From the NCBI RefSeq assembly GCF_011317445.1, contig NZ_JAAAPL010000002.1, forward strand, positions 1-64,000: a DNA stretch of 64,000 bases, in the 5' to 3' direction. Position 1 is the stretch's first letter. Every line of letters starts with the position of its first letter. Positions 49,070 to 64,000 of the stretch are shown here, in pieces. Both the position numbers and the translations under genes were made by a program. The stretch is from Chelativorans multitrophicus. Lineage in GTDB: Bacteria; Pseudomonadota; Alphaproteobacteria; Rhizobiales; Rhizobiaceae. The notes below the pieces were generated by a model. It had not been told where the DNA came from. It saw only the letters and a program-made list of their open reading frames with translations, and did no database searches.

Positions 49070-50392
49070 CTAGACGTATCGGCTTTTCGGGCGCGGCACG
49101 CCGAGATTGTCGCGGAGGGTCTCACCCTCATATGCCGTGCGATAGACACCGCGATCCTGCAGTTCCGGCACGACATATTCAACGAAGTCCTCGATGCCTC
49201 CGGGCAGGATGGCCGGGATTATGTTGAACCCGTCCGCCCCGCGGCCGTCGACCCATTCCTGCATGGCATCCGCCACTTGCGATGGAGTGCCGATAACGGT
49301 GCGATGCCCGCGCCCCATCGAGGCTGCCAGGTAAAGATCGCGAATCGTCCAGTTGTTGCGCTCGGCCAAATCGAGCAGAACCTTGGCGCGGCTTCGGTGC
49401 TGGGGATCATTGGGCACTGGCACCGGTCCGTCGAGCGGGTAGGCGGACAGATCGCCCATCGGGCCATAGACGTGGGCCAGCCCCACCAGGGGGTGGATCA
49501 ACTGTTGCAGTTCCTCATATTTATCGCGTGCCTCCGCTTCCGTCGGCGCGACGATGGCCAGCAAACCGGGCAGGATTTTCAGCGAATCCTCATCGCGACC
49601 GAACTTGCCAAGCCTCGACTTCACCGAACGATAATAATCCTGCGCGTCACGCAAGTCCGTGTGGGCGACGAAACAGACATCCGCACTTGCCGCCGCGATT
49701 TCCTGTCCAGCTTCGGAGCTGCCCGCTTGGACAAGCAGGGGATATCCCTGTATCGGACGCTCCACCGTTAGCGGTCCTCGCACCTGGAAGTATTTGCCGA
49801 CATGATTGAGCACGTGCATTTTCTCGGATTCGAAGAAAATGCCCGTTGCCTTGTCCCGAAGGAACGCATCTTCATCCCAAGAATCCCAAAGGCCTTTCGT
49901 CACCTCGACGAACTCCGCCGCGCGGGCGTAGCGTTCGTCATATTCGAAGTGTTTGTCCCGGTTGAAGTTCTTGGCTTCTTCCTCCGACCAGGAGGTGACG
50001 ATGTTCCAGCCGGCGCGGCCGCCGCTGATATGGTCCAGCGAGGCAAATTTTCGCGCGATGTGAAAGGGTTCGTTGTAGCTGGTCGATGCCGTCGCAACGA
50101 GGCCGATGTGTTTCGTCACCATGGCAAGCGCGGAAAGCAGCGTCAGTGGCTCCAATTCCACATTGCGGTCCGATCGCGCCAGGGAGCCGGCGGGGTTGTC
50201 CCTTTGCCGTAAGCCCAACCCATCGGCCAGGAACAACAAATCGAAGAGGCCGCGCTCTGCGGTCTTGGCGATGTGGACAAAATGACCGATCCGCATCGCT
50301 CCATCGGCCGGTACCGAAGGATGACGCCAGCCTCCGGCATGGTAGCCGAGCTGCCGCATAGATAGTCCGAGCTTGATCTGGCGCTTGGGCAT
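49070..50392 (-). CDS. NtaA/EmoA/SnaA-type flavin-dependent monooxygenase
   Basis: The 440-residue protein is a luciferase-like monooxygenase of the nitrilotriacetate/EDTA monooxygenase component A family. Landmarks are LGLSMRQLGYHAGGWRHP near the N-terminus, then VATASTSYNEPFHIARKFAS, SGGRAGWNIVTSW and PLLVQAGSSEAGQE. Such enzymes use reduced FMN from a separate reductase to oxidise an N-substituent (NTA, EDTA) or a C-S compound (DszA, SnaA). The ATG at 50392 has AGGAG five bases upstream. The gene is divergent from a LysR regulator. Family membership is clear. An aminopolycarboxylate substrate is inferred from the lyases and transporters nearby. Confidence 0.85.
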   Translation of the reverse strand: MPKRQIKLGLSMRQLGYHAGGWRHPSVPADGAMRIGHFVHIAKTAERGLFDLLFLADGLGLRQRDNPAGSLARSDRNVELEPLTLLSALAMVTKHIGLVATASTSYNEPFHIARKFASLDHISGGRAGWNIVTSWSEEEAKNFNRDKHFEYDERYARAAEFVEVTKGLWDSWDEDAFLRDKATGIFFESEKMHVLNHVGKYFQVRGPLTVERPIQGYPLLVQAGSSEAGQEIAAASADVCFVAHTDLRDAQDYYRSVKSRLGKFGRDEDSLKILPGLLAIVAPTEAEARDKYEELQQLIHPLVGLAHVYGPMGDLSAYPLDGPVPVPNDPQHRSRAKVLLDLAERNNWTIRDLYLAASMGRGHRTVIGTPSQVADAMQEWVDGRGADGFNIIPAILPGGIEDFVEYVVPELQDRGVYRTAYEGETLRDNLGVPRPKSRYV

Positions 50393-50534
50393 CTGGAACT
50401 CCTGATGAAATCGCCTGGCGGGCACGCGATGGAATAGCGGGTATGTTTTTGCTGGGCAGAGGAGGGGCGTGGACCGCTCATCCAGCAGTCCAAGTCTCCT
50501 CATTTTCATGCGAACAAACATCGATGGGCTCGGG

Positions 50535-51480: not shown

Positions 51481-52269
51481 CTATACTGCGGACGCGATTA
51501 ACCGGCGGGTGTACTCGTGCTGCGGATTGGCGAAGACATCGGCTGCGGGGCCGGCCTCGACGATCTCGCCCTTGTACATGACACAGACATCGTCGCTGAT
51601 GTGCCGAACCAAATGCAGGTTGTGCGAGATGAAGAAGTATGTCAGCCCAAGTTCGGCCTGCAACTTCAGCAACAGATTGACGATCTGGGCTTGAATCGAG
51701 ACATCGAGCGCACTGGTCGGCTCGTCCAGTACCAGGAGTTCAGGTTCGAGAATTAGCGCTCGCGCGATCGCGATGCGCTGGCGCTGCCCGCCGCTGAACT
51801 CGTGAGGGTAGCGACCCCTCTGATCTTCGCGCAGGCCGACGAGCTGCATCATCTCGACCACGCGGGCTTAGCGCCAGGCGCGGTCGCCCTGGCGATGGAT
51901 ATCGAGCGGCTCGCGGATCAGGCGAGCCACGGTTTTGCGGGGGTTCAGAGAGGAGTAGGGGTCCTGGAACACGGTCTGGAAGCCGCGTCGCAGCACCGCG
52001 AGCCGACGATGGTCGGCGGACAGGAGGGATTCGCCCCTGAACAAAACCTCGCCGGCAGTCGGCCGAAGAAGCAGCGTGGCGCAGCGCCCGAGAGTGCTCT
52101 TTCCGCTGCCGCTTTCGCCGACAAGACCAAGCGTCCTGCCTTTGCGGACCGCGACCGACACCTCTCGAACCGCATGGACCGCCGACTCGCTTCGTCCCAG
52201 GAGGGATCCGCGGGAGCCGTAGGTCATGCTCAGGTTCTTGACCTGGAGAACTGTTTCAGATGCAGTCAT
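51481..52269 (-). pseudogene. DppF-type ABC ATPase interrupted by an in-frame stop
   Basis: The two halves of one ATPase lie in the same frame, separated only by a TAA at 51870-51868 (codon 134 of about 263). The first half has [14 protein letters not shown] (Walker A) and the Q-loop FQTVFQDPYSSLNP. The second half has FSGGQRQR (signature), [12 protein letters not shown] (Walker B) and the switch His in [12 protein letters not shown]. The stop falls in the linker between Q-loop and signature (DRAWR, stop, [11 protein letters not shown]). No bases appear to be lost. Reinitiation at GTG or ATG just after the stop is possible. It follows the SBP gene at 52325 and would otherwise be the partner of the DppD-type ATPase at 42499. 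A sequencing error cannot be excluded. Confidence 0.75.
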
Positions 52270-52289
52270 GGTCACTCTCGCCAAAGGAA

Positions 52290-52310
52290 CCGGACGCACA
52301 ATGCGTCCGG
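52290..52310 (-). other. Intercistronic hairpin between SBP and DppF-type genes
   Basis: CCGGACGCA and TGCGTCCGG form a perfect 9-bp stem around a 3-base loop. It separates the SBP stop from the ATPase start and overlaps the earlier in-frame start at 52299, supporting the ATG at 52269. Confidence 0.65.
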
Positions 52311-54059: not shown

Positions 54060-55235
54060 ATGCAACTTGAACCCTCCCCGACTTCCCTTGTGGAGCTTGC
54101 CGGCATGCGTCTGGCAAAGTTGCGCGCGGCGCTCGAAAGATCGGAAAACGATGCTCTCCTCTTGTTCAGCCCGGAGAATTTTCTTTACGCATCGGGCTAT
54201 GAGAGCATGCCGGCAGCAATAAACCGTCGCTACGTCTACTGCGCGGCGGTGACGCCCGACCGGTTGCTGCTGGTTGTCCCGGCGGCCGACTTCGCCGCGG
54301 CCATCGCGTCGGGCGTGCCGGCCACCGACATCATCACTTTCGGCACTTTCTATTTCAGCGGCGAGACGAATTCGGCGCATATCGATCCGCAGAACGCCGA
54401 TTTCGCCGGCGCGTTGGACAAGGCTCTGTCCGCGCTGGCCGCCCGCCGGGTGGGAATCGATGTGGACCACGCGCCGGCGGTCGCGTTCGATATTCTGGAC
54501 AGGCGGGGGATCATCCATTCTGACGCCGTTTCCTTCATGCTCGCTGTCCGCTCGACAAAGCTGCCCGGCGAGATCGCGCTCATGCGCTATGCCGCGCGCA
54601 TCACGGAAGCGGCGATCGAGGCTGGCATGGCGATGGCTCGTGCGGGCATTACCGATAAGGAAGTGGCAGCCGTCGTCGCCGCCACCATGTCGCGCGGTGG
54701 GGGCTATCCCCGCAACGTCACGGTCGTCGGCGGCCTTGACAGCGCTCTCGCAGATGCTTTCGCCGCGGAGCGGCCTCTTGCGGCCGGCGATCTCCTGCGC
54801 TTCGACGTCGGCTGCAGTTATTACGGGTACAAGTCCGACCTGGCGCGCACGGCGGTGGTGGGGGAGCCGACAAGGGTGCAGGCGCGGCGCTACGAAGCTC
54901 TGCGTATCGGGCTGCAGGCGGAGATCGACCGAGCCCGGGCGGGCGTTGCGGCGAAGGATATTTACGAAGCGGGAATGGACGCGGTGGAAGCAGCCGGTTT
55001 TGAGGGATTCCGCCGGCACCATCTGGGCCATGCCATCGGCCTGGCTGTCTATGAAGCGCCCGTGATCACCGCCACCAGCCAGGCCGTGCTGGAGGCCGGC
55101 TCCACCTTCTGTTTCGAGACCCCCTATTATGAGCCGGGCTGGGGCGGCATGATGTGTGAGGACACCGGTGTCGTGACCGAAGCAGGTTTCGAGCTCATCT
55201 CTTCGATGGACCGCAGCCTTCGGGTCCTGAATTAA
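54060..55235 (+). CDS. M24-family metallopeptidase (Xaa-Pro peptidase-like)
   Basis: The 391-residue protein has a creatinase N-domain and an M24 domain with all five metal ligands visible: the two Asp in LRFDVGCSYYGYKSDLART, the His in HHLGHAIGL, and the Glu residues in CFETPYYEPG and MCEDTGVVT. It should be a dinuclear metal hydrolase of the prolidase/aminopeptidase P type. This contrasts with the eroded paralogue at 29924. It is divergent from the SBP gene and 14 bases upstream of the aminotransferase gene. Confidence 0.85.
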   Translation: MQLEPSPTSLVELAGMRLAKLRAALERSENDALLLFSPENFLYASGYESMPAAINRRYVYCAAVTPDRLLLVVPAADFAAAIASGVPATDIITFGTFYFSGETNSAHIDPQNADFAGALDKALSALAARRVGIDVDHAPAVAFDILDRRGIIHSDAVSFMLAVRSTKLPGEIALMRYAARITEAAIEAGMAMARAGITDKEVAAVVAATMSRGGGYPRNVTVVGGLDSALADAFAAERPLAAGDLLRFDVGCSYYGYKSDLARTAVVGEPTRVQARRYEALRIGLQAEIDRARAGVAAKDIYEAGMDAVEAAGFEGFRRHHLGHAIGLAVYEAPVITATSQAVLEAGSTFCFETPYYEPGWGGMMCEDTGVVTEAGFELISSMDRSLRVLN

Positions 55236-55249
55236 ACTGGAGGCCACCA

Positions 55250-56386
55250 GTGAACCTAGCCGAAGCCCGCAGTGATTTCCCCATCGTCTATCGCCGCGCC
55301 TATCTGAATGCCTGTTCGCTCATGCCGCTGTCCAATCGCGTGGTCGGGGCGGTCCACGCGCAACTCGGCGATCTGCAATTGAACGGCCGCAACAACTCAC
55401 CGCACCGGATCCGCTTTGCCGAGGAGCACATCCGGCCCGCCATCGCCCGGCTGATTGGCGCCGTGCCCGCGGAGATCGCCTTCGTGAAGAACACGACCGA
55501 GGGGCTGAACATCGTCGCCAACGGGATCGACTGGAGAGAGGGCGACAATGTCGTCATCGCCAATATAGAATATCCGTCGAACGTCTATTGCTGGCTGAAT
55601 CTGGCCCGGCGGGGCGTCGAAATCAGATGGATCGATGCCAAAGCGGCCGGCGGACGTGTCACCGTGGACGACGTCGCCCGCCAAATCGACAGCCGGACGC
55701 GGCTTGTGTCGGTGAGTTGCGTCCAGTTCTCGACCGGATTCCGGCAGGACATGGAGGCGACGGGCGACCTCTGCCGCGAGCGGGGCGTTCTTCTGAACTA
55801 TGACGCTATCCAGGCGGCGGGGGTGCTGGAGATCGACGCGAGCCGCACGCATTTCGATTTCATGTCGGCGGGCGGGCACAAATGGATGGGTGGCCCTATG
55901 GGAACGGGCTTCTTCTATTGCAGGGCGTCCTCGCTTGAGCGTCTACATCCCCACGGCATCGGGCCCGGGTCGATGACGAATGAGGAGACGGACATCGACT
56001 ATGACATCGGCCTGATGCAGCCGGATGCGCGCCGCTTCGAAGAGGCGCTCCCGAACTATCCCGGTCTGTGGGGCCTGCACGCCTCGCTCGGTACAATTTT
56101 GGCGCTGGGGCCGCAGGTGGTCGAGGCGCACTCGCTCCGCCTCATATCCCGGGCCATCGAAGGGCTGAAGCGAAAGGGTTATCTGATCCACAGTCCGCAG
56201 GAGGAAAGGCACCGCTCCGGCATCCTGACCTTCCGCCATCCCGAACGGAGCAGCGAGGAGCTGAACGAGCGCCTCGTTGAAGCCGGAGTCGACGTCACCG
56301 TCAGGCAGGGCAATCTGCGCATCGCGCCGCACTTCTACAATGACGACGGCGATATCGATTGGCTGCTCGAGGCATTGCCAGCTTAG
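55250..56386 (+). CDS. Class V aminotransferase-family PLP enzyme
   Basis: The 378-residue fold-type I enzyme has its PLP lysine at Lys211 (SAGGHKWMGG) and the ring-contact Asp185 (NYDAIQAAG). VKNTTEGLNIVANGI forms the N-terminal phosphate-binding region. The family includes isopenicillin-N epimerase-like, cysteine desulfurase-like and aminotransferase members, so the reaction is open. It starts at GTG 55250 with TGGAGG seven bases upstream. It forms a two-gene unit with the M24 peptidase. Confidence 0.85.
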   Translation: MNLAEARSDFPIVYRRAYLNACSLMPLSNRVVGAVHAQLGDLQLNGRNNSPHRIRFAEEHIRPAIARLIGAVPAEIAFVKNTTEGLNIVANGIDWREGDNVVIANIEYPSNVYCWLNLARRGVEIRWIDAKAAGGRVTVDDVARQIDSRTRLVSVSCVQFSTGFRQDMEATGDLCRERGVLLNYDAIQAAGVLEIDASRTHFDFMSAGGHKWMGGPMGTGFFYCRASSLERLHPHGIGPGSMTNEETDIDYDIGLMQPDARRFEEALPNYPGLWGLHASLGTILALGPQVVEAHSLRLISRAIEGLKRKGYLIHSPQEERHRSGILTFRHPERSSEELNERLVEAGVDVTVRQGNLRIAPHFYNDDGDIDWLLEALPA

Positions 56387-56654: not shown

Positions 56655-57749
56655 ATGGTCGACAGGGAGACGACAAAAAACTCACGCCTGGATTTTACGC
56701 GCCGCCAGTTCTTGACCACCGCCGCGGGCGCAGCGACCGCCGCGGTGGCCGGTCCATTGGTGGTAACGCCGGGCAAGGCGCAGGCAAGTGCGGTCGTGCG
56801 CGTGGCCGACGATGGCGGCACGCTGAGCAAGGCGCGGGAACGGCTATTCTTCAAGCCGTTCATGGAGCGCACGGGCATCGAAGTGCAGGTCCATGTCGGC
56901 CAGCATGACCTGTCCAAGATGAAGGCGATGGCCCAGACCGACAACCTGGAATACGATATGGTGCTGGCCAGCGGCAGCATCGCAGCGGCGGCAACGAAGA
57001 GCGGGCTGCTCGCTGAGATCGACAAGTCCAAGCTGGACCTTTCAAACTACATGGTCGAGGAGTGGAACCAGCCGACCTGGATCGCCTGGCAATATTACAC
57101 GGCAGGGCTGACCTACAACACCGACACAGTGGCGGAGGACAAGGTGCCACGTTCCTGGGTCGATTATTGGGATTCGGAAAAGTTTCCCGGTCGCCGCGGA
57201 TTTCGCACCAGTCCCTATGAGACACTCGAACAAGCGCTGCTGGCCGATGGCGTCCCGATCACCGATCTGTACCCCATCGACATGGACCGCGCTTTCGCGT
57301 CGCTCGACAAGATCAAGGATAAGGTCAACGTTTGGGTCGCGGAGACATCACAAACCGTTCAGTTGCTTCAGCAGAACGAATTGGACTTCTGCGTGTCCTA
57401 CAGCGGTCGCGTCGAGCAGGCGCGCGCCAACGGCATCCCCGTCGGCTTCGTCTATGATTCGGCGATCTCGTCCCCCACGGCGATCTGGGTGATGAAGGGC
57501 ACGCCGAACTACGATGCCAGCTTGAAATTGATGCAGTGGTTCCTGACAGGCGAGCCGGGGGTTGCGTGGTTCACCGAATTCCCCGGCAACGGCCCGACCG
57601 ACAGGAAAACCTTCGAAGCTCTTCCTGACGACATCAAGGCCAAGCTGCCGAGCTTCGACAATCCGTCGGCAGTGTGGGTGGATGTCGATTGGTGGGCCGA
57701 CAATCTCGAGGCGGCAACCGTTCGCTACAAGACTTGGCTGCTGAGCTAA
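56655..57749 (+). CDS. ABC transporter substrate-binding protein, PotD/polyamine-type
   Basis: The 364-residue protein has a canonical twin-arginine signal (TRRQFLTTAAGAATAAVAG) and is therefore probably exported folded. The body matches the spermidine/putrescine-type binding proteins: GGTLSKARERLFFKPFMERT, then YNTDTVAEDKVPRSWVDYWD and ELDFCVSYSGRVEQARANG. It starts an operon with two permeases, an ATPase and a GroEL-like protein. Polyamine-type SBPs bind di- or polyamines and other small cationic or chelated ligands, so an amine-containing substrate fits but is not proven. Confidence 0.9.
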   Translation: MVDRETTKNSRLDFTRRQFLTTAAGAATAAVAGPLVVTPGKAQASAVVRVADDGGTLSKARERLFFKPFMERTGIEVQVHVGQHDLSKMKAMAQTDNLEYDMVLASGSIAAAATKSGLLAEIDKSKLDLSNYMVEEWNQPTWIAWQYYTAGLTYNTDTVAEDKVPRSWVDYWDSEKFPGRRGFRTSPYETLEQALLADGVPITDLYPIDMDRAFASLDKIKDKVNVWVAETSQTVQLLQQNELDFCVSYSGRVEQARANGIPVGFVYDSAISSPTAIWVMKGTPNYDASLKLMQWFLTGEPGVAWFTEFPGNGPTDRKTFEALPDDIKAKLPSFDNPSAVWVDVDWWADNLEAATVRYKTWLLS

Positions 57750-57859: not shown

Positions 57860-58687
57860 TTGTACTTTATACTGCCATTGCTGATCTATATGGCCGCCGT
57901 CTTCCTGTTGCCATTGCTGTTCGTGCTGTTCACCAGCGTGGTGTCCGAAACCAGCGGCCAGCTCACGCTGGAGTTCTTCGAGCGGTTCTTCACGCACGGC
58001 CTTTATCTGCGTGTCTTGAAGACCACGTTGGAGATCTCGCTGATCGGGACGGCGCTCACGCTGCTGATCGCGTATCCGATAGCCTACTACCTCGCCAAGC
58101 AGACGCCGAAACGGCGCTCGTATCTGACGCTGCTTATCCTGCTGCCCTTTTATACGAGCATTTTGGTGAAGGCCTTCGCCTTCATGGTGGTGCTGGGCTA
58201 CAACGGTGTCGTCAATGATGCCATCCGTTTGGTGCTGGGCGAAGACTTCGTTTTGCCGCTGCTGTTCAATCGTTTTGGCGTCATGATCGGCGTGGTCCAT
58301 GACATGGTGCCGTTCATGGTCTTTCCGATTGTGATCAATCTGCTGGCCCAGAACTCCTCGATCCACAAGGCGGCAGAGATCATGGGCGCGACCAGGACCC
58401 GCATCTTCTGGTCCATCATCTTTCCGCTCAGTTTGCCCGCGGTGGCTGCCGGAAGCCTGCTGGTGATCATTCGCCTCATGGGGCAGTTCGTTACGCCGGC
58501 GCTGCTCGGCGGACGCACCGACATAATGATGTCGAACCTGATCAGCTTTCACATCAAGGATGCGCTGGACTGGAACATGGCTGCGGCCGTTTCCATCGTT
58601 CTGCTGCTCCTGTCATGTCTGATTTTGCTTGCCCTCACCCGGGTGAGGGGGGCTCAACTGTTTGGGGAGCAGCCGCGCCATGGATAA
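57860..58687 (+). CDS. ABC transporter permease, PotB type
   Basis: The 275-residue inner-membrane permease begins directly with a membrane segment (LPLLIYMAAVFLLPLLFVLF). Its permease loop includes EIMGATRTRIFWSIIFPLSL. The start is the TTG at 57860 after GAGGGA; there is no ATG or GTG between it and the in-frame stop at 57815. It overlaps the next permease gene by eight bases. Confidence 0.85.
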   Translation: MYFILPLLIYMAAVFLLPLLFVLFTSVVSETSGQLTLEFFERFFTHGLYLRVLKTTLEISLIGTALTLLIAYPIAYYLAKQTPKRRSYLTLLILLPFYTSILVKAFAFMVVLGYNGVVNDAIRLVLGEDFVLPLLFNRFGVMIGVVHDMVPFMVFPIVINLLAQNSSIHKAAEIMGATRTRIFWSIIFPLSLPAVAAGSLLVIIRLMGQFVTPALLGGRTDIMMSNLISFHIKDALDWNMAAAVSIVLLLLSCLILLALTRVRGAQLFGEQPRHG

Positions 58688-59504
58688 AGAACGCGACGTT
58701 GAGGCGCTGGGCGGCTCGGCGCCATCCCCCCTGGTCGCCACCGCCGCTTGGCTGGGGTTCGTCTACCTTCTCCTCCCAAGCCTCATCATCATCCCGATGT
58801 CTTTCGGAGACACGCGCGAGATCGTTTTCCCGCCCGCCACTTATACGCTCGACCTTTACCGGGAATACTTCACCAACCCGACCTGGACCGGTTCCACCAT
58901 CCAGAGCATCCGCATCGCGGTAATCGCGACACTCGCCGGTTTGGCACTAGGCACATCCGCCGCCTATGGCATTGTGCGGGGCAGCTTCCGTGGGAAGGTC
59001 CTGCTTGGCGCGCTCCTGCTGAGCCCGTTTTTCGTGCCGGCGGTGGTCAAGGCCCTTGGCTTCTACATCTATTTCGCGGCGCTCGGCATTCAGGGAACGA
59101 CTCTTAGCGTGGTGCTGGGGCACACGCTGTTCGTCACACCTTACGTCATGATCGTGATGATGGCCGCGTTGCGGAACGTGGACGCGCAGATCGAGGCAGC
59201 GGGAATGATTATGGGCGCAAGCCGCATTTACGTGTTTCGTAAGGTGACGCTTCCGATGCTCCGCAATGCGCTGATCGCGGCAGGGCTGTTCGCCTTCCTC
59301 ATGTCCTTCGACGAGATGATCATCGCATTCTTCCTGTCGGGCTTCGGAACGGCGACCCTGCCCGTCAAGATGTACGAAAGCATCGTGCACGAGGTGTCGC
59401 CGGTACTGTCGGCTATATCGGCGCTGCTGACATTTCTTGCCCTTGTCATCTGCTTGGCCGTCACCGCGCTGAGCGGGAGAAGCGGCAGACAACCGTCGCA
59501 CTGA
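58680..59504 (+). CDS. ABC transporter permease, PotC type
   Basis: The 274-residue permease has about six membrane segments and the loop AAGMIMGASRIYVFRKVTLP. The ATG at 58680 lies inside the end of the PotB-type gene. It is the second half of the membrane channel. A gap of 99 bases separates it from the ATPase gene. Confidence 0.9.
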   Translation: MDKERDVEALGGSAPSPLVATAAWLGFVYLLLPSLIIIPMSFGDTREIVFPPATYTLDLYREYFTNPTWTGSTIQSIRIAVIATLAGLALGTSAAYGIVRGSFRGKVLLGALLLSPFFVPAVVKALGFYIYFAALGIQGTTLSVVLGHTLFVTPYVMIVMMAALRNVDAQIEAAGMIMGASRIYVFRKVTLPMLRNALIAAGLFAFLMSFDEMIIAFFLSGFGTATLPVKMYESIVHEVSPVLSAISALLTFLALVICLAVTALSGRSGRQPSH

Positions 59505-59603: not shown

Positions 59604-60725
59604 ATGTATATAGCTCATCATCAGGTGCCCGCCGGCGATACGGCGCAGCCCAAGGTTTGGCTGGAGAACGTCAGCAAGCAGTACGGCTCGGTGACCGCAC
59701 TTCAGCCATCGGACCTCAAGGTCCGGTCGGGCGAGTTCCTCACTATTCTTGGGCCGAGCGGCTCGGGAAAGTCGACGGTGCTGAACCTGATCGCCGGAAT
59801 GACCAACCCCACGGCAGGACGGGTCTGGATCGACGGCCGTGACTGCACCAATGTCCCCCCAAGCAAACGCGGCTTGGGTATGGTGTTTCAGAACTATGCC
59901 TTGATGCCGCATATGAGCGTATTCGAGAACGTGGCTTTTCCCCTCCGCGTACGCAGGGTGACGGAAGCCGAGATCAAGCGCCGGGTCGGCGAGGCGCTGG
60001 AACTCGTCCGCCTGCCTAGCGTTGCCGGGCGCAAGCCCGCCGAACTGTCCGGAGGACAACAGCAGCGCATCTCGATCGCGCGCTGCCTCGTCTACAATCC
60101 CGCCATCATCCTGATGGACGAGCCGCTTGGTGCTTTGGACAAGAAGCTGCGCGAGGAAATGCAACTCGAGCTGAAGCGCCTGCACGTTGAATTGAAGGTG
60201 ACGGCGCTTTATGTGACGCATGATCAGGAAGAAGCACTGACCATGTCGGATCGCATCGTCCTGTTCAATGGCGGCAGGATCGAGCAGGCTGGCACACCGC
60301 ACGAACTGTATTTCCGTCCCAGAACTCTCTTTTCGGCGAAGTTCCTCGGCGACTCCAACGTCCTCTCCGGCAAGCTCCAGGGCCGGGCGCAAGACGGCCT
60401 TGTCGAGACGCCGGTGGGGCTGTTGCGCAGCTCGAACGGCAACGAGCATGTAGGCGACGGCGCGTCCGTGCACCTGATGGTTCGGCCCGAGAATGTGCTG
60501 CTGCTGCCTCCGGACAATAAGCACGAATATGCGAACGGGTTGGAGGCGATGGTCGTCGACACCATTTCCTTTGGTGGCGTGATCAAGACATTCGCCCGGC
60601 TTTCGGATGGCTCCACCATGACCGTTCAGGAGCTTACTCGCGCGCGGCGGCAGGCTTTCGATCGTGGTGCGCGTGTTCGGTTGGCCTGGCAGGCTGAGGA
60701 CATGCTGCTTTTGCCGGCGGCGTGA
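59604..60725 (+). CDS. ABC transporter ATPase, PotA type
   Basis: The 373-residue ATPase has Walker A GPSGSGKST, signature LSGGQQQR, Walker B IILMDEPLGALD and switch region VTHDQEEALTMSDR, followed by a TOBE domain (VHLMVRPENVLLLP). It energises the PotB/PotC-type channel. The GroEL-like gene follows 57 bases later with no visible terminator. Confidence 0.9.
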   Translation: MYIAHHQVPAGDTAQPKVWLENVSKQYGSVTALQPSDLKVRSGEFLTILGPSGSGKSTVLNLIAGMTNPTAGRVWIDGRDCTNVPPSKRGLGMVFQNYALMPHMSVFENVAFPLRVRRVTEAEIKRRVGEALELVRLPSVAGRKPAELSGGQQQRISIARCLVYNPAIILMDEPLGALDKKLREEMQLELKRLHVELKVTALYVTHDQEEALTMSDRIVLFNGGRIEQAGTPHELYFRPRTLFSAKFLGDSNVLSGKLQGRAQDGLVETPVGLLRSSNGNEHVGDGASVHLMVRPENVLLLPPDNKHEYANGLEAMVVDTISFGGVIKTFARLSDGSTMTVQELTRARRQAFDRGARVRLAWQAEDMLLLPAA

Positions 60726-60782
60726 AGCCAGCCTCGCCGCCATCCTTGGCGTGGCACGGTGACGGGAGCTTTACGGACGGAC

Positions 60783-62339
60783 ATGGCGCGCGACTTCATT
60801 TTTGCCGGGGATGACATGCGGCGCATCATGGCGTCCGATGCAGCGCTCGTGGCGCGTGTCATCGCCTCGAGCATGGGGCCGGGAGGCTGTCATGTCGCAA
60901 TCGAGCGCAGCTACGGCAATCCGGTCGCACGCGACGCCGTCAGCGTGGTTCGCGCACTGGCCGGCGGCCCCGACAGCATCTCTCCCGGTCAGCGGCTTCT
61001 GCGTGAGGCCGTCATGGAGGTCCATCAGACCTGGGGCGACGGCGGAAGCACGGTGGCGATTGTCGTTTCGTCGCTCCTGCGGAGCATCACCAGGCTGTGC
61101 GCTGGCCAAATTGATCGCCTTGAACTGGGGCAGGGGGTTCGAACCGCGCTCGCGCAGGCCCGCGATCGCTTGATCGCGGACAGCCGCCCGGTGGTCGAGG
61201 ACCGCGAACTCCTTTGTCTCACCACCACTGCTGCACAGGACAAGGCGCTGGGCGGCCTGGCGATGCAGGCATTGCGGCGAGCCGGGATGGAGGGCCAGGT
61301 CAGCGTGCAGGTCTCGCCGGAAGGCGGCGACCGGCTCGAAGCCGACCATGGCTTTCGCGTTCCGCCGCTTGCGGCGCCGCTTGGGTTCAGCAAAGGGCTG
61401 GCGCTGAACCAGCTGGAACGCCCTTTCGTGCTGCTGCTGGACGAAACACTGCCCGGCTTCGACCCGCTTGGTCCTCTTCTCGACAAGGTTCTACGGACGG
61501 AACGCCCTTTGCTGATCGTATGCCAGGGCGGCGCCCCCGCAGCAATTCAGGCGATCAACCAGAACCGAAGGCAAGGTGGCATGGCCACCGCCCTCGTCAC
61601 AGCGCCTCCGCGTCCCGACCAGCGGGAGGAACTACTGGAGGATCTGGCGGTGCTGTGCGGCGGGTTGGTCACTGGATCCCACCGCGGAGTGCCGCTGGCA
61701 TCCGTCGATATTGACATGCTGGGTTCGCTCGACGAAGCCATCTTCGGTGCGGCGGATACCGTTCTCAAGCCAGACCACACATCAGGGATCTCGAAACGTC
61801 TCGAGATCCTGCGCCGGAGGCGGGAATCGGCACCCCCGCAGGAGGTCGAGGCGCTGCGTCAACGCATTGCCCGGCTGAGCGGCCACCTGGTATCTCTGAT
61901 GATCGGGGGTGCGACGGGGCTGGAGGCGACCGACAGGCGCGACCGTTGCGAAAGCGCGCTCAAGTCAGGCCGTGCCGGGCTGGTCGGCGGCTACGTGGCG
62001 GGCGGCGGCGCGGCGCTGGCGCGCGCGGCGGCGGCGATCACCGTTTCGCCCGAGGCTACGGTGGGCGCGATGGCAGGCGCGCGCATTGTGCAGGAGGCTC
62101 TGCGGCAGCCCTGCTCGACCATCGCTCGCAATGCAGGCCATTCGTCGCCGGCTGCGGTTGCGGCTCTTTTGGCTGAAGCCGATCCCGACATCTGCTTCGA
62201 CCTGCGCACATCTCGGTTTGGAAACATGCTGGACTTGGGCCTGTGCGACGCGGCGGCGCCCCTGGTGCATGGGTTGACGGTAGCCCAATCGATCACACGG
62301 AGCTTCCTGGATGCTGAAATCCTGCTTATCCGGCGCTGA
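60783..62339 (+). CDS. Divergent orphan GroEL-like chaperonin (HSP60 family)
   Basis: The 518-residue product aligns along its whole length with GroEL. It shows ASSMGPGGCHVAIERSYGNP, then RDAVSVVRAL, WGDGGSTVAIVVSSLL, RPFVLLLDETLPGFDP, YVAGGGAALARAAAAI and FGNMLDLGLCD. Equivalents of the nucleotide-site residues Asp52 and Asp87 are kept (Asp51, Asp86). The catalytic Asp398 position is Ser391 (RCESALKSGR against RVEDALHATR). The P-loop Lys of LGPKGRN is Gly, and the GGM tail is absent. No groES gene is nearby. I start at the ATG at 60783, matching the GroEL N-terminus; a GTG at 60759 is possible. It ends a PotABCD-type operon and is probably a dedicated folding or assembly factor. Confidence 0.85.
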   Translation: MARDFIFAGDDMRRIMASDAALVARVIASSMGPGGCHVAIERSYGNPVARDAVSVVRALAGGPDSISPGQRLLREAVMEVHQTWGDGGSTVAIVVSSLLRSITRLCAGQIDRLELGQGVRTALAQARDRLIADSRPVVEDRELLCLTTTAAQDKALGGLAMQALRRAGMEGQVSVQVSPEGGDRLEADHGFRVPPLAAPLGFSKGLALNQLERPFVLLLDETLPGFDPLGPLLDKVLRTERPLLIVCQGGAPAAIQAINQNRRQGGMATALVTAPPRPDQREELLEDLAVLCGGLVTGSHRGVPLASVDIDMLGSLDEAIFGAADTVLKPDHTSGISKRLEILRRRRESAPPQEVEALRQRIARLSGHLVSLMIGGATGLEATDRRDRCESALKSGRAGLVGGYVAGGGAALARAAAAITVSPEATVGAMAGARIVQEALRQPCSTIARNAGHSSPAAVAALLAEADPDICFDLRTSRFGNMLDLGLCDAAAPLVHGLTVAQSITRSFLDAEILLIRR

Positions 62340-62373
62340 TCCGAGCGGCGCGCCGCCTGCGATCCGATCTTTT

Positions 62374-63135
62374 TCAGCCCGGCGACCAGCCCAGATCGCG
62401 CGAGACGGTGTCGGCGGCGGCCACCACGATGGGCGCGACGTTGTCGATCGTCAAATGCGGCGAAGATCGTTCGGCGAATGCCACGCTCATGGCAGCTTGC
62501 ACTTCGCCGGAGGCATTGCGCACCGGCGCGCCGACCGAGATCACGCCCAGTATCGTCTCTTCAACCACGCTGGCGTAGCCGGCCTCACGTGCCTCTCGAA
62601 CCTGCTTAATAATCACGTCCGGATCGGTAATCGTGGCGGGCGTCATCTTAGGAAGCGGCTTCTCACGGAGGATCGCTTCGGCCTCGGCGTCATCCAACGC
62701 CGCAAGCAAGACCTTGCCCATGGCGGTGCTGTGCAAAAATGCCAGCTCGCCCGGCGAATTGCGGATGGCAATCGGCCCAACCGATTGCACGCAGAGCAGA
62801 TAGACGGCTTGGTTGCCATGGCGCCGGCCGAGATAGCCGTTCAGTTCGTGGTTGCTTGCGACCATTTCCAACTGCCGCTGCGCCGACACGATCATGCGGT
62901 CCTTTCTCAGGATCGAATTGCCCAGGCTGAATGCGCGGTAGCCGATGCTGTAGCGGCGGCTTATTCTGTCCTGCTCGACAAAGCCGTGCTCAAGGAAGGT
63001 ATTCACCAGGCGCTGTACGATCGCATTGCTGAGCCCGATGTGGCGGGCGATCTCGCGGATGCCCATCGGTTCATTGGCGCGGTCCAGCAGGTCAAGAATC
63101 TGAAGCGCTCGTTCGAGTGATTGGCTGTTTGTCAT
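62374..63135 (-). CDS. IclR-family regulator B
   Basis: This 253-residue paralogue of the 46637 regulator has SLERALQILDLLDRANEPMG and IREIARHIGLSNAIVQRLVN in the DNA-binding region. LHSTAMGKVLLAAL and LGVISVGAPV lie in the effector domain. It is divergent from the third lyase gene across 135 bases that contain the AGGAAC-n3-GTTCCT palindrome. It is convergent with the GroEL-like gene. It is the natural candidate to bind that palindrome both here and at 56600. Confidence 0.9.
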   Translation of the reverse strand: MTNSQSLERALQILDLLDRANEPMGIREIARHIGLSNAIVQRLVNTFLEHGFVEQDRISRRYSIGYRAFSLGNSILRKDRMIVSAQRQLEMVASNHELNGYLGRRHGNQAVYLLCVQSVGPIAIRNSPGELAFLHSTAMGKVLLAALDDAEAEAILREKPLPKMTPATITDPDVIIKQVREAREAGYASVVEETILGVISVGAPVRNASGEVQAAMSVAFAERSSPHLTIDNVAPIVVAAADTVSRDLGWSPG

Positions 63136-63205
63136 GGCTCTTCTGAAAGGCAGGGTGAAAACGTAATCCAGGAAACGTGAAGCAAAGGCAAGGGGGGCAC
63201 ACGCA

Positions 63206-63250
63206 TTGACAGGAATAGCGCACTACTCTACAAATAGGAACAACGTTCCT
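63206..63250 (+). promoter_or_regulatory. Promoter with AGGAAC-n3-GTTCCT operator
   Basis: TTGACA (63206-63211) and TACAAA are 17 bases apart. The perfect inverted repeat AGGAACAACGTTCCT (63236-63250) follows immediately. The arrangement copies the promoter of the PotD-type operon at 56568-56614. Confidence 0.75.
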
Positions 63251-63270
63251 AATTTAGGTACATCACCATC

Positions 63271-64000
63271 ATGCTAGACGCCAGTAGCGCGGGTGGCTCT
63301 GCTGCCCCATCCGAGCCGTTGTTGACCGATGCGCGACTGGGAAAGAAGCCGGCCGACCGTCTTCAGCGGCACTATCTCCAGGCGACCTTGAAGCGTGAGG
63401 AGAACAAGTTCGACCAGATCATCGCCGTCGATCAGGCCCATGCGGTGATGTTGACGGAACAGGGTATTATTCCCCGCGCAACGGGGACGGCCCTACTGGT
63501 CCAGCTGTCCAAGCTGCGGCGCGAGGATGTCGGCATAGACGTGATGCGCGGCAGCATGTTGCTGCAGATCGAAGGGCACCTGGCCAGCAAGACCGGAAAC
63601 GAAGCCGCTGGCGCGCTCTCGACTGGGCGAAGCCGCATTGATCAGGGCGCGACCTTTCGCAGACTCTACGAACGCCAGGCAATTATCGCGGTCCTTACCG
63701 AGCTGATCGACCTGGAAGCCGCCGTGATTGCGCAAGCTGCAAATCATATCGACACCATCATGCCGGGATACACCCACCTACAGCCATCTCAGCCCTGGGT
63801 CTTCGGCCACTATCTTCTCGGTGTGGCGGAGCGGCTGGATATAGATCTCGTCCGGCTGGAGAGGGCCTACGCGGCGGTCAATCTCTGCCCGTTGGGAACA
63901 GTGGGAGGCAGCGGCTCGACGTGGCCGCTGGATCGGCATCGCGTGGCCAGCCTTCTGGGCTTCGACGGTATCGTCGAAAACGCGCGTCTGGGACGGGACA
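63271..64000 (+). CDS. Argininosuccinate-lyase-superfamily C-N lyase, paralogue 3 (cut by right edge)
   Basis: The first 243 residues of a third lyase are visible. It has the superfamily motifs TGRSRIDQGATFRR and MPGYTHLQPSQPW. Like the two paralogues at 33313 and 36079 it carries SRIDQ instead of SRNDQ. Its N-terminus is about 15 residues longer and it is less similar to the other two than they are to each other. It has its own IclR-type operator. The catalytic-loop region lies beyond the window. Confidence 0.85.
   Translation, partial: MLDASSAGGSAAPSEPLLTDARLGKKPADRLQRHYLQATLKREENKFDQIIAVDQAHAVMLTEQGIIPRATGTALLVQLSKLRREDVGIDVMRGSMLLQIEGHLASKTGNEAAGALSTGRSRIDQGATFRRLYERQAIIAVLTELIDLEAAVIAQAANHIDTIMPGYTHLQPSQPWVFGHYLLGVAERLDIDLVRLERAYAAVNLCPLGTVGGSGSTWPLDRHRVASLLGFDGIVENARLGRD

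Follow-up and report, generated by a model that had tools for sequence, protein, structure and literature searches.

The window, i.e. the whole stretch of 64,000 nucleotides from Chelativorans multitrophicus that was analysed, carries close to its end an open reading frame that starts with an ATG at position 60783 and reaches with its stop codon to position 62339, as had been initially annotated (an in-frame GTG lies at 60759). The encoded protein of 518 amino acids is a divergent chaperonin. The gene had been described as lying inside an operon; it is really the last gene of a same-strand run and is followed by a convergent regulator gene. The run and its downstream neighbours are composed as follows.

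54060 to 55235, plus strand: M24-family hydrolase, creatinase/prolidase-like (Pfam)
55250 to 56386, plus strand: class V PLP enzyme, aminotransferase/desulfurase-like (profile matches)
56655 to 57749, plus strand: periplasmic solute-binding protein (SBP_bac_8, PotD/PhnS-like, scoring below the cut-offs of these families; profile matches)
57860 to 58687, plus strand: ABC permease, PotB-like (profile matches)
58662 to 59504, plus strand: ABC permease, PotC-like (profile matches)
59604 to 60725, plus strand: ABC ATPase, PotA-like (TIGR01187, 359.4 bits, cut-off 355.6); its end lies 57 bases ahead of the chaperonin ATG
60783 to 62339, plus strand: divergent group I chaperonin gene of 518 codons, no groES partner (ORF, Pfam, AlphaFold2, Foldseek)
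62374 to 63135, minus strand: IclR-family regulator, convergent with the chaperonin gene and divergent from the lyase gene (profile matches)
63271 to 64000, plus strand: first part of a C-N lyase gene (510 amino acids, continuing past the window; profile and PDB matches)

The nearest solved structures of the C-N lyase are PDB entry 6rx8 and the 6g3d series, which are named argininosuccinate lyase there and which we take to be the Chelativorans EDDS lyase. The chaperonin gene is flanked by two genes for luciferase-like monooxygenases that are 76% identical to each other, one at 49070-50521 on the minus strand, with MoxC/YtnJ as nearest PDB relatives, and one at about 68700-70025 of the contig on the plus strand. 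A second M24 hydrolase, two Cys/Met PLP enzymes, an amidase and ABC permeases are also encoded around it. We read this setting as an accessory island and infer that its substrate would be a substituted amino acid or an aminopolycarboxylate. The M24, Cys/Met PLP and luciferase-like genes are each present twice, as if the island had been partly duplicated, and at 51481-52299 on the minus strand, a 272-codon frame for an ABC transporter ATPase contains one in-frame stop, such that one of the island's importers may be defective. A scan of positions 60400-63400 for sigma-70-like promoters, which misses other promoter types, found none; in the same region five terminator-like sites were present, compared to 2.3 in shuffled sequences, a difference that was given no weight. 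A tblastn search with E. coli GroES detected no groES in the window or in the next 17.9 kb. Both Cpn10 matches of the genome lie on other contigs, each beside one of the two canonical groEL genes, and thus the initial statement that no groES is nearby was borne out.

The Pfam family Cpn60_TCP1 (PF00118) matched the protein with 106.9 bits at a cut-off of 34.3 (1.4e-30). The models PRK12849 (268.7 bits, cut-off 352) and GroEL equivalog TIGR02348 (232.4 bits, cut-off 582.1) were covered over nearly their entire lengths; all matching GroEL models scored the protein under their cut-offs. With HMMER, 87 PDB sequences were matched, the best at 1e-59. The identity to E. coli GroEL is 25.7% in the MAFFT alignment, and that to the two canonical GroELs of its own genome is 26-27%. 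An AlphaFold2 model (pLDDT 85.9, pTM 0.73) matched GroEL/Hsp60 over the whole length in Foldseek and VIA comparisons, but as an alignment of 63 chaperonins was used as input, the modelled fold is not independent proof that this sequence folds. The terminal segments 3-7 and 513-517 were modelled as strands; in GroEL-type subunits, the terminal strands tether neighbours in the ring. The reading frame encodes a full-length, intact and extremely altered group I chaperonin, and not a normal GroEL. The Pfam, GroEL model and PDB matches also bear out the initial annotation that the entire protein aligns with GroEL.

The alignments were used to inspect the residues of the nucleotide pocket and of the apical surface. 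The following positions (plus strand) carry the changes discussed below.

60933 to 60938: codons of Asp51 and Ala52; Asp52 of GroEL is kept and Gly53 is replaced by alanine (residue census)
61038 to 61052: phosphate loop D86-G-G-S-T90, corresponding to D87-G-T-T-T91 of GroEL; Asp87 is kept, with the changes T89G and T90S (alignment and census)
61557 to 61562: Asn259-Gln260 at the GroES/client-binding positions Val263-Val264 (residue census)
61953 to 61955: codon of Ser391 at the position of the catalytic Asp398, inside a predicted helix, 379-402 (HMMER, MAFFT, AlphaFold2)

The conservation of these positions was quantified in a census of 122 other chaperonins, of which 42 stem from genomes, plasmids and E. 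coli and 80 from viral contigs. The census contains near-copies, as 62 of the 80 viral-contig sequences remain at less than 80% mutual identity. From the comparison sets, duplicates as well as loci L003-L005 and L045, the last being the window itself, were excluded.

Both HMMER and MAFFT aligned Ser391 with Asp398, and the segment from the DR.E.AL block to the GGG block is free of gaps. An alternative register with an aspartate at position 398 was rejected, since the two aligners agree and Glu390 aligns with Glu397. The initially annotated loss of the catalytic aspartate is thus reproduced by both methods. Asp398 is kept in 121 of the 122 other chaperonins, with asparagine in the remaining one, and, in a larger set, in 118 of 119 non-MimG sequences as well as in all 11 MimG-type proteins, which were taken from plasmids for comparison. 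The phosphate loop is changed from GDGTTT to GDGGST. The window chaperonin has Gly88 at Thr89, Ala52 at Gly53 and Ser30 at Thr30, positions that are each invariant in 122 of 122 other chaperonins, a figure that overstates universality because the viral-contig sequences (80 of at least 536) were gathered by two conserved-motif patterns, which favours ordinary motifs. In total, 79 of 154 near-invariant columns are changed. In contrast, Asp52, Asp87, Asp495 and the glycines G32, G88, G414 and G415 (GroEL numbering) are kept, in accordance with the initial annotation that the equivalents of Asp52 and Asp87, here Asp51 and Asp86, remain. That annotation had also stressed a replacement of the P-loop lysine by glycine. 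The change itself is present, but it deserves little weight, because Lys34 is not invariant and is a lysine in only 104 of the 122 other chaperonins. To our knowledge, chaperonins have no Walker-A lysine.

As the catalytic aspartate is lost and the binding aspartates are kept, weak or absent hydrolysis together with possible nucleotide binding, as proposed initially, would be a fair expectation. A precedent is the engineered D398A variant of E. coli GroEL, for which excerpts of PMC3813556 and PMC3326522 give about 2-3% of the wild-type ATPase activity with normal ATP binding and encapsulation, a figure that is not transferable to the window chaperonin because of its several further changes around the phosphate.

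The losses exceed those initially annotated and extend to the phosphate loop, to the R197-E386 and E255 switch residues, and to the GroES/client hydrophobics. The residues of the R197-E386 bridge are replaced by His189 and Gly379. In addition, E255 is replaced by Ala251, E257 by alanine, K80 by glutamate, R452 by Ser445, and E461 by serine. Among the 122 other chaperonins, R197 is kept in 106, E386 in 113, R452 in 95 and E461 in 60. The roles of R197-E386, K80 and E255 are described in the excerpted text of PMC3326522. The GGM tail is gone, and the alignment confirmed this initial observation. Polar residues or glycine (V263N, V264Q, and L234G at residue 230) are found at positions 263, 264 and 234, which we take to be GroES- and client-binding positions of GroEL. 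This polar apical surface could mean that client binding has been lost altogether.

Next, orthologues were sought in genome samples of increasing taxonomic breadth. In the family sample, 150 of 151 genomes matched at 1e-10, because ordinary GroELs match the window chaperonin. The best match outside its own gene had 2.4e-64 and 30% identity, and the cut-offs for the later searches were set just beyond this value. At 1e-66, only its own genome was matched among the 16 genomes of the genus sample, and 4 of 397 genomes were matched in the order sample, i.e. the own copy and three GroELs that are ordinary, as they are 67.5-68.1% identical to E. coli GroEL. At 1e-67, the class sample (1 of 385) and the phylum sample (1 of 398) yielded no orthologue besides the own copy; the order, class and phylum sets are samples in which about three first-look candidates were scored per genome, and a relative of middling identity could be missed by these searches. 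Peptide patterns derived from the protein, which are sensitive to close relatives only, matched 103 stretches in the genome contig collection, and none was a relative; for the active-site pattern D-[AG]-V-x31-G-D-G-G-[ST]-T-[AV], 9 stretches were found there, none of which was a chaperonin by tblastn. A single 37-residue match of 41% and no orthologue was obtained with viral contigs. The 1306 matching plasmid records were all below 60% identity, the best being a MimG-type protein with 32.8%, and the 124 matching phage records were also all below 60%, with about 27% among the matches listed. These plasmid, phage, viral and contig collections may leave out the own genome or near ones. Among the matches listed in searches of open-access papers (at most 20 per search), none described this protein or any chaperonin lacking Asp398 in a catabolic island, which is a weak negative result.

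The neighbouring genes were also followed. In a family sample of 199 genomes, the lyase matched only in its own genome at 1e-120, and no strong match was present elsewhere; the binding protein matched in 1 genome at 1e-90 and in 4 at 1e-60, its own genome included. Relatives of the lyase from Roseibium, Cupriavidus metallidurans and Microvirga are 43-50% identical over the match, and a relative of the binding protein from Chelatococcus is 36% identical. In stretches of 17-31 kb around these four genes (8-15 kb on each side), tblastn detected no chaperonin, and therefore the chemistry does not always need one nearby. These results do not uphold the idea that the chaperonin is regularly tied to a PotABCD operon together with a C-N lyase: no orthologue was found with which synteny could be compared, and the four neighbour-gene relatives lack a chaperonin nearby. 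On a plasmid of Roseibium sp. Sym1 (L052, 10243-20737), a LysR gene, a glutathione-annotated ABC transporter, an argH-like lyase gene and a cystathionine gamma-synthase-like gene lie together, which is possibly a conserved core of the chemistry. Two further divergent chaperonins were observed. One, in a genome of the same family (L050, 8667-10259, minus strand), combines asparagine at position 398 with an ordinary phosphate loop, and no GroES match was found in its stretch of 19.9 kb. The other, on a Cupriavidus oxalaticus plasmid (L039, 11995-13629), has serine at Asp52, glycine at Lys34 and a retained Asp398, and its stretch also contained no GroES match; the plasmid record has no annotated genes in this stretch.

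One alternative considered is that the gene is a relic. In this case, a chaperonin gained by horizontal transfer or by duplication would have lost its former use and would now be drifting, with a frame that has yet to break. The extreme end branch of the protein in the tree (7.61, compared to a median of 0.26), the many changed near-invariant columns, the failure to find kin, and the in-frame stop in the nearby ABC ATPase frame, which suggests that parts of the island may be decaying, would all be in accordance with drift. The GC content at second codon positions is also high, 0.518 versus 0.384 and 0.392 in the own groEL genes; however, the neighbouring amidase (0.524) and LysR (0.502) genes share this property, so that, taken alone, it does not point to decay. 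When neutral drift to 27% identity was simulated for the own canonical groEL, at least one stop codon arose in 300 of 300 runs (mean 10.9), whereas the 518 codons of the window gene contain neither a stop nor a frameshift. In addition, identity to the own canonical groEL clusters in the columns that are conserved among chaperonins, with 51 of 84 near-invariant columns (61%) versus 89 of 428 elsewhere (21%; Fisher p 1.5e-12). Together, these two results indicate that the protein has been under selection for much of its history, although its function may have been lost recently, and we regard a relic as unlikely. The fold might instead have taken on a non-folding job, e.g. as a nucleotide-bound scaffold or a sensor linked to the ABC importer, which would fit the location directly after the importer ATPase gene, the re-shaped apical surface, and the retained D495 and glycine loops of the nucleotide pocket. 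However, nothing specific indicates such a job, and no chaperonin lies within 8 kb of the gene for the Chelatococcus binding-protein relative; we consider such a role quite unlikely.

The genome encodes two canonical GroELs, and the model still shows strands at both termini, so the protein could also enter the rings of these GroELs as an ATPase-dead subunit that slows or retargets them. An identity of only 26-27% to its would-be partners and the replacement of the inter-subunit salt-bridge residues make such a modifier role improbable. Lastly, a MimG/MmoG-type chaperonin might have moved into the island and then diverged. The first rank of a MimG-type protein in the plasmid search would agree with such an origin, and the tree joined the two with an SH-aLRT of 93. 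However, the tree tool flagged meeting long branches, and with its long end branch the protein cannot be placed by the tree, which was therefore set aside. The profile comparison argued against membership: the MimG profile scored the protein with 224.8 bits, less than the six profiles from randomly drawn sets of 11 other chaperonins (238.0-264.3) and less than a profile of all others together (271.5), and on this basis MimG-type membership was rejected. Among 47 diagnostic columns, the protein agrees with the MimG consensus in 10, including one shared deletion, with that of the other chaperonins in 14, and with neither in 23. This MimG share exceeds that of any of 119 controls, the highest of which reached 7 versus 26, but several of the 10 columns are mild changes, e.g. 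I/L, D/E or K/R. Moreover, no di-iron monooxygenase was recognised among 19 proteins scanned around the chaperonin. Taken together, we hold a MimG origin to be highly unlikely.

The explanation that we favour, as a possible rather than a probable one, is a lineage-private, GroES-independent and hydrolysis-poor chaperonin that would serve one enzyme of its own gene island. A group I chaperonin would have given up the general GroEL/GroES folding cycle. It would still form a ring in which nucleotide is bound weakly or serves a structural purpose, and its re-shaped apical surface would hold a specific client. With slow or no hydrolysis, it would act as a holdase, or as a scaffold in the assembly of an enzyme from the catabolic island. 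The initial proposal of an assembly factor for a single cluster enzyme is still a plausible hypothesis. The features underlying this proposal are a whole reading frame, replaced catalytic, phosphate-loop, salt-bridge and GroES/client residues, and the missing groES partner and GGM tail. By their location only, the two luciferase-like monooxygenases and the class V PLP enzyme are candidate clients, and the C-N lyase is a weaker candidate because three of its relatives have no neighbouring chaperonin. A stricter version, which we judge to be rather unlikely, is a pseudo-chaperonin that would retain the fold and perhaps a bound nucleotide and, having neither hydrolysis nor GroES capping nor the allosteric switch, would serve one island enzyme as a static scaffold or as a holdase.

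GroEL belongs to the most highly conserved proteins. A copy that is intact but has lost its catalytic, lid and switch residues together would amount to a natural experiment on what a chaperonin needs in order to assist one client. If the protein is active, this would suggest that a chaperonin cage can be of use without an ATP cycle, and the protein might serve as a GroES-free expression partner for an island enzyme.

In comparison to canonical GroEL/Hsp60, the window chaperonin has lost the catalytic aspartate, the phosphate-loop threonine, the allosteric residues, the GroES/client hydrophobics and the GGM tail, and it lacks a groES. Several of these traits are shared with MimG-type chaperonins. 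For 9 of the 11 MimG-type records, annotated monooxygenase genes are present; in another, the stretch inspected contains only accessory genes, and one is unannotated. No GroES match was found in their stretches of 7.6-25.5 kb. E386 is proline in 11 of 11, E255 is alanine or serine in 10 of 11 and aspartate in one, V264 is alanine, glutamate, glycine or glutamine in 11 of 11, and L234 is leucine in 3 of 11. The two types are thus alike in having no groES nearby, in the loss of E386 and E255, in the replaced V264, and in their location in a catabolic cluster. As MimG-types share these apical and allosteric losses, the pattern observed in the window chaperonin would fit dedication to one client. 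In contrast, D398, G53 and T89-T91 are kept in 11 of 11 MimG-types, and therefore they offer no precedent for a non-hydrolysing chaperonin; the window chaperonin goes further, in that it has lost the catalytic site, and differs also in that no di-iron monooxygenase was recognised nearby.

Other diverged chaperonins share single traits. The R197-E386 bridge is not conserved in the phage EL chaperonin gp146 either, according to the excerpted text of PMC7185714, in which this protein is also stated not to interact with E. coli GroES. Likened by that description, gp146 differs in that only its nucleotide pocket is highly conserved, with a catalytic Asp412 and an active ATPase, whereas the pocket of the window chaperonin is altered too. 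Chlamydial GroEL2 and GroEL3 are likewise diverged paralogues beside a canonical copy, with differences in the GroES-binding and ATP regions reported in PMC1892554. However, they occur in intracellular pathogens and not in an accessory gene island, and their models NF038370 and NF038369 scored the window chaperonin with 52.5 and 91.0 bits, respectively, below the cut-offs of 600. Dedicated chaperonins are known for some catabolic oxygenases, and several actinobacteria have a GroEL gene downstream of prmABCD (PMC4428276, in excerpt). The initial annotation, which named such chaperonins for oxygenases only, was too narrow, as three bacteria have a GroEL-like gene associated with their gbu (gamma-butyrobetaine) cluster, and in E. 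timonensis a GroES/GroEL-like pair is needed for the gamma-butyrobetaine pathway at 37 °C (excerpts of PMC10653785). Likened by this description, the gbu chaperonin of the route from gamma-butyrobetaine to TMA is used with a GroES-like partner, unlike the window chaperonin, but the two are alike in being tied to an amine-catabolic cluster.
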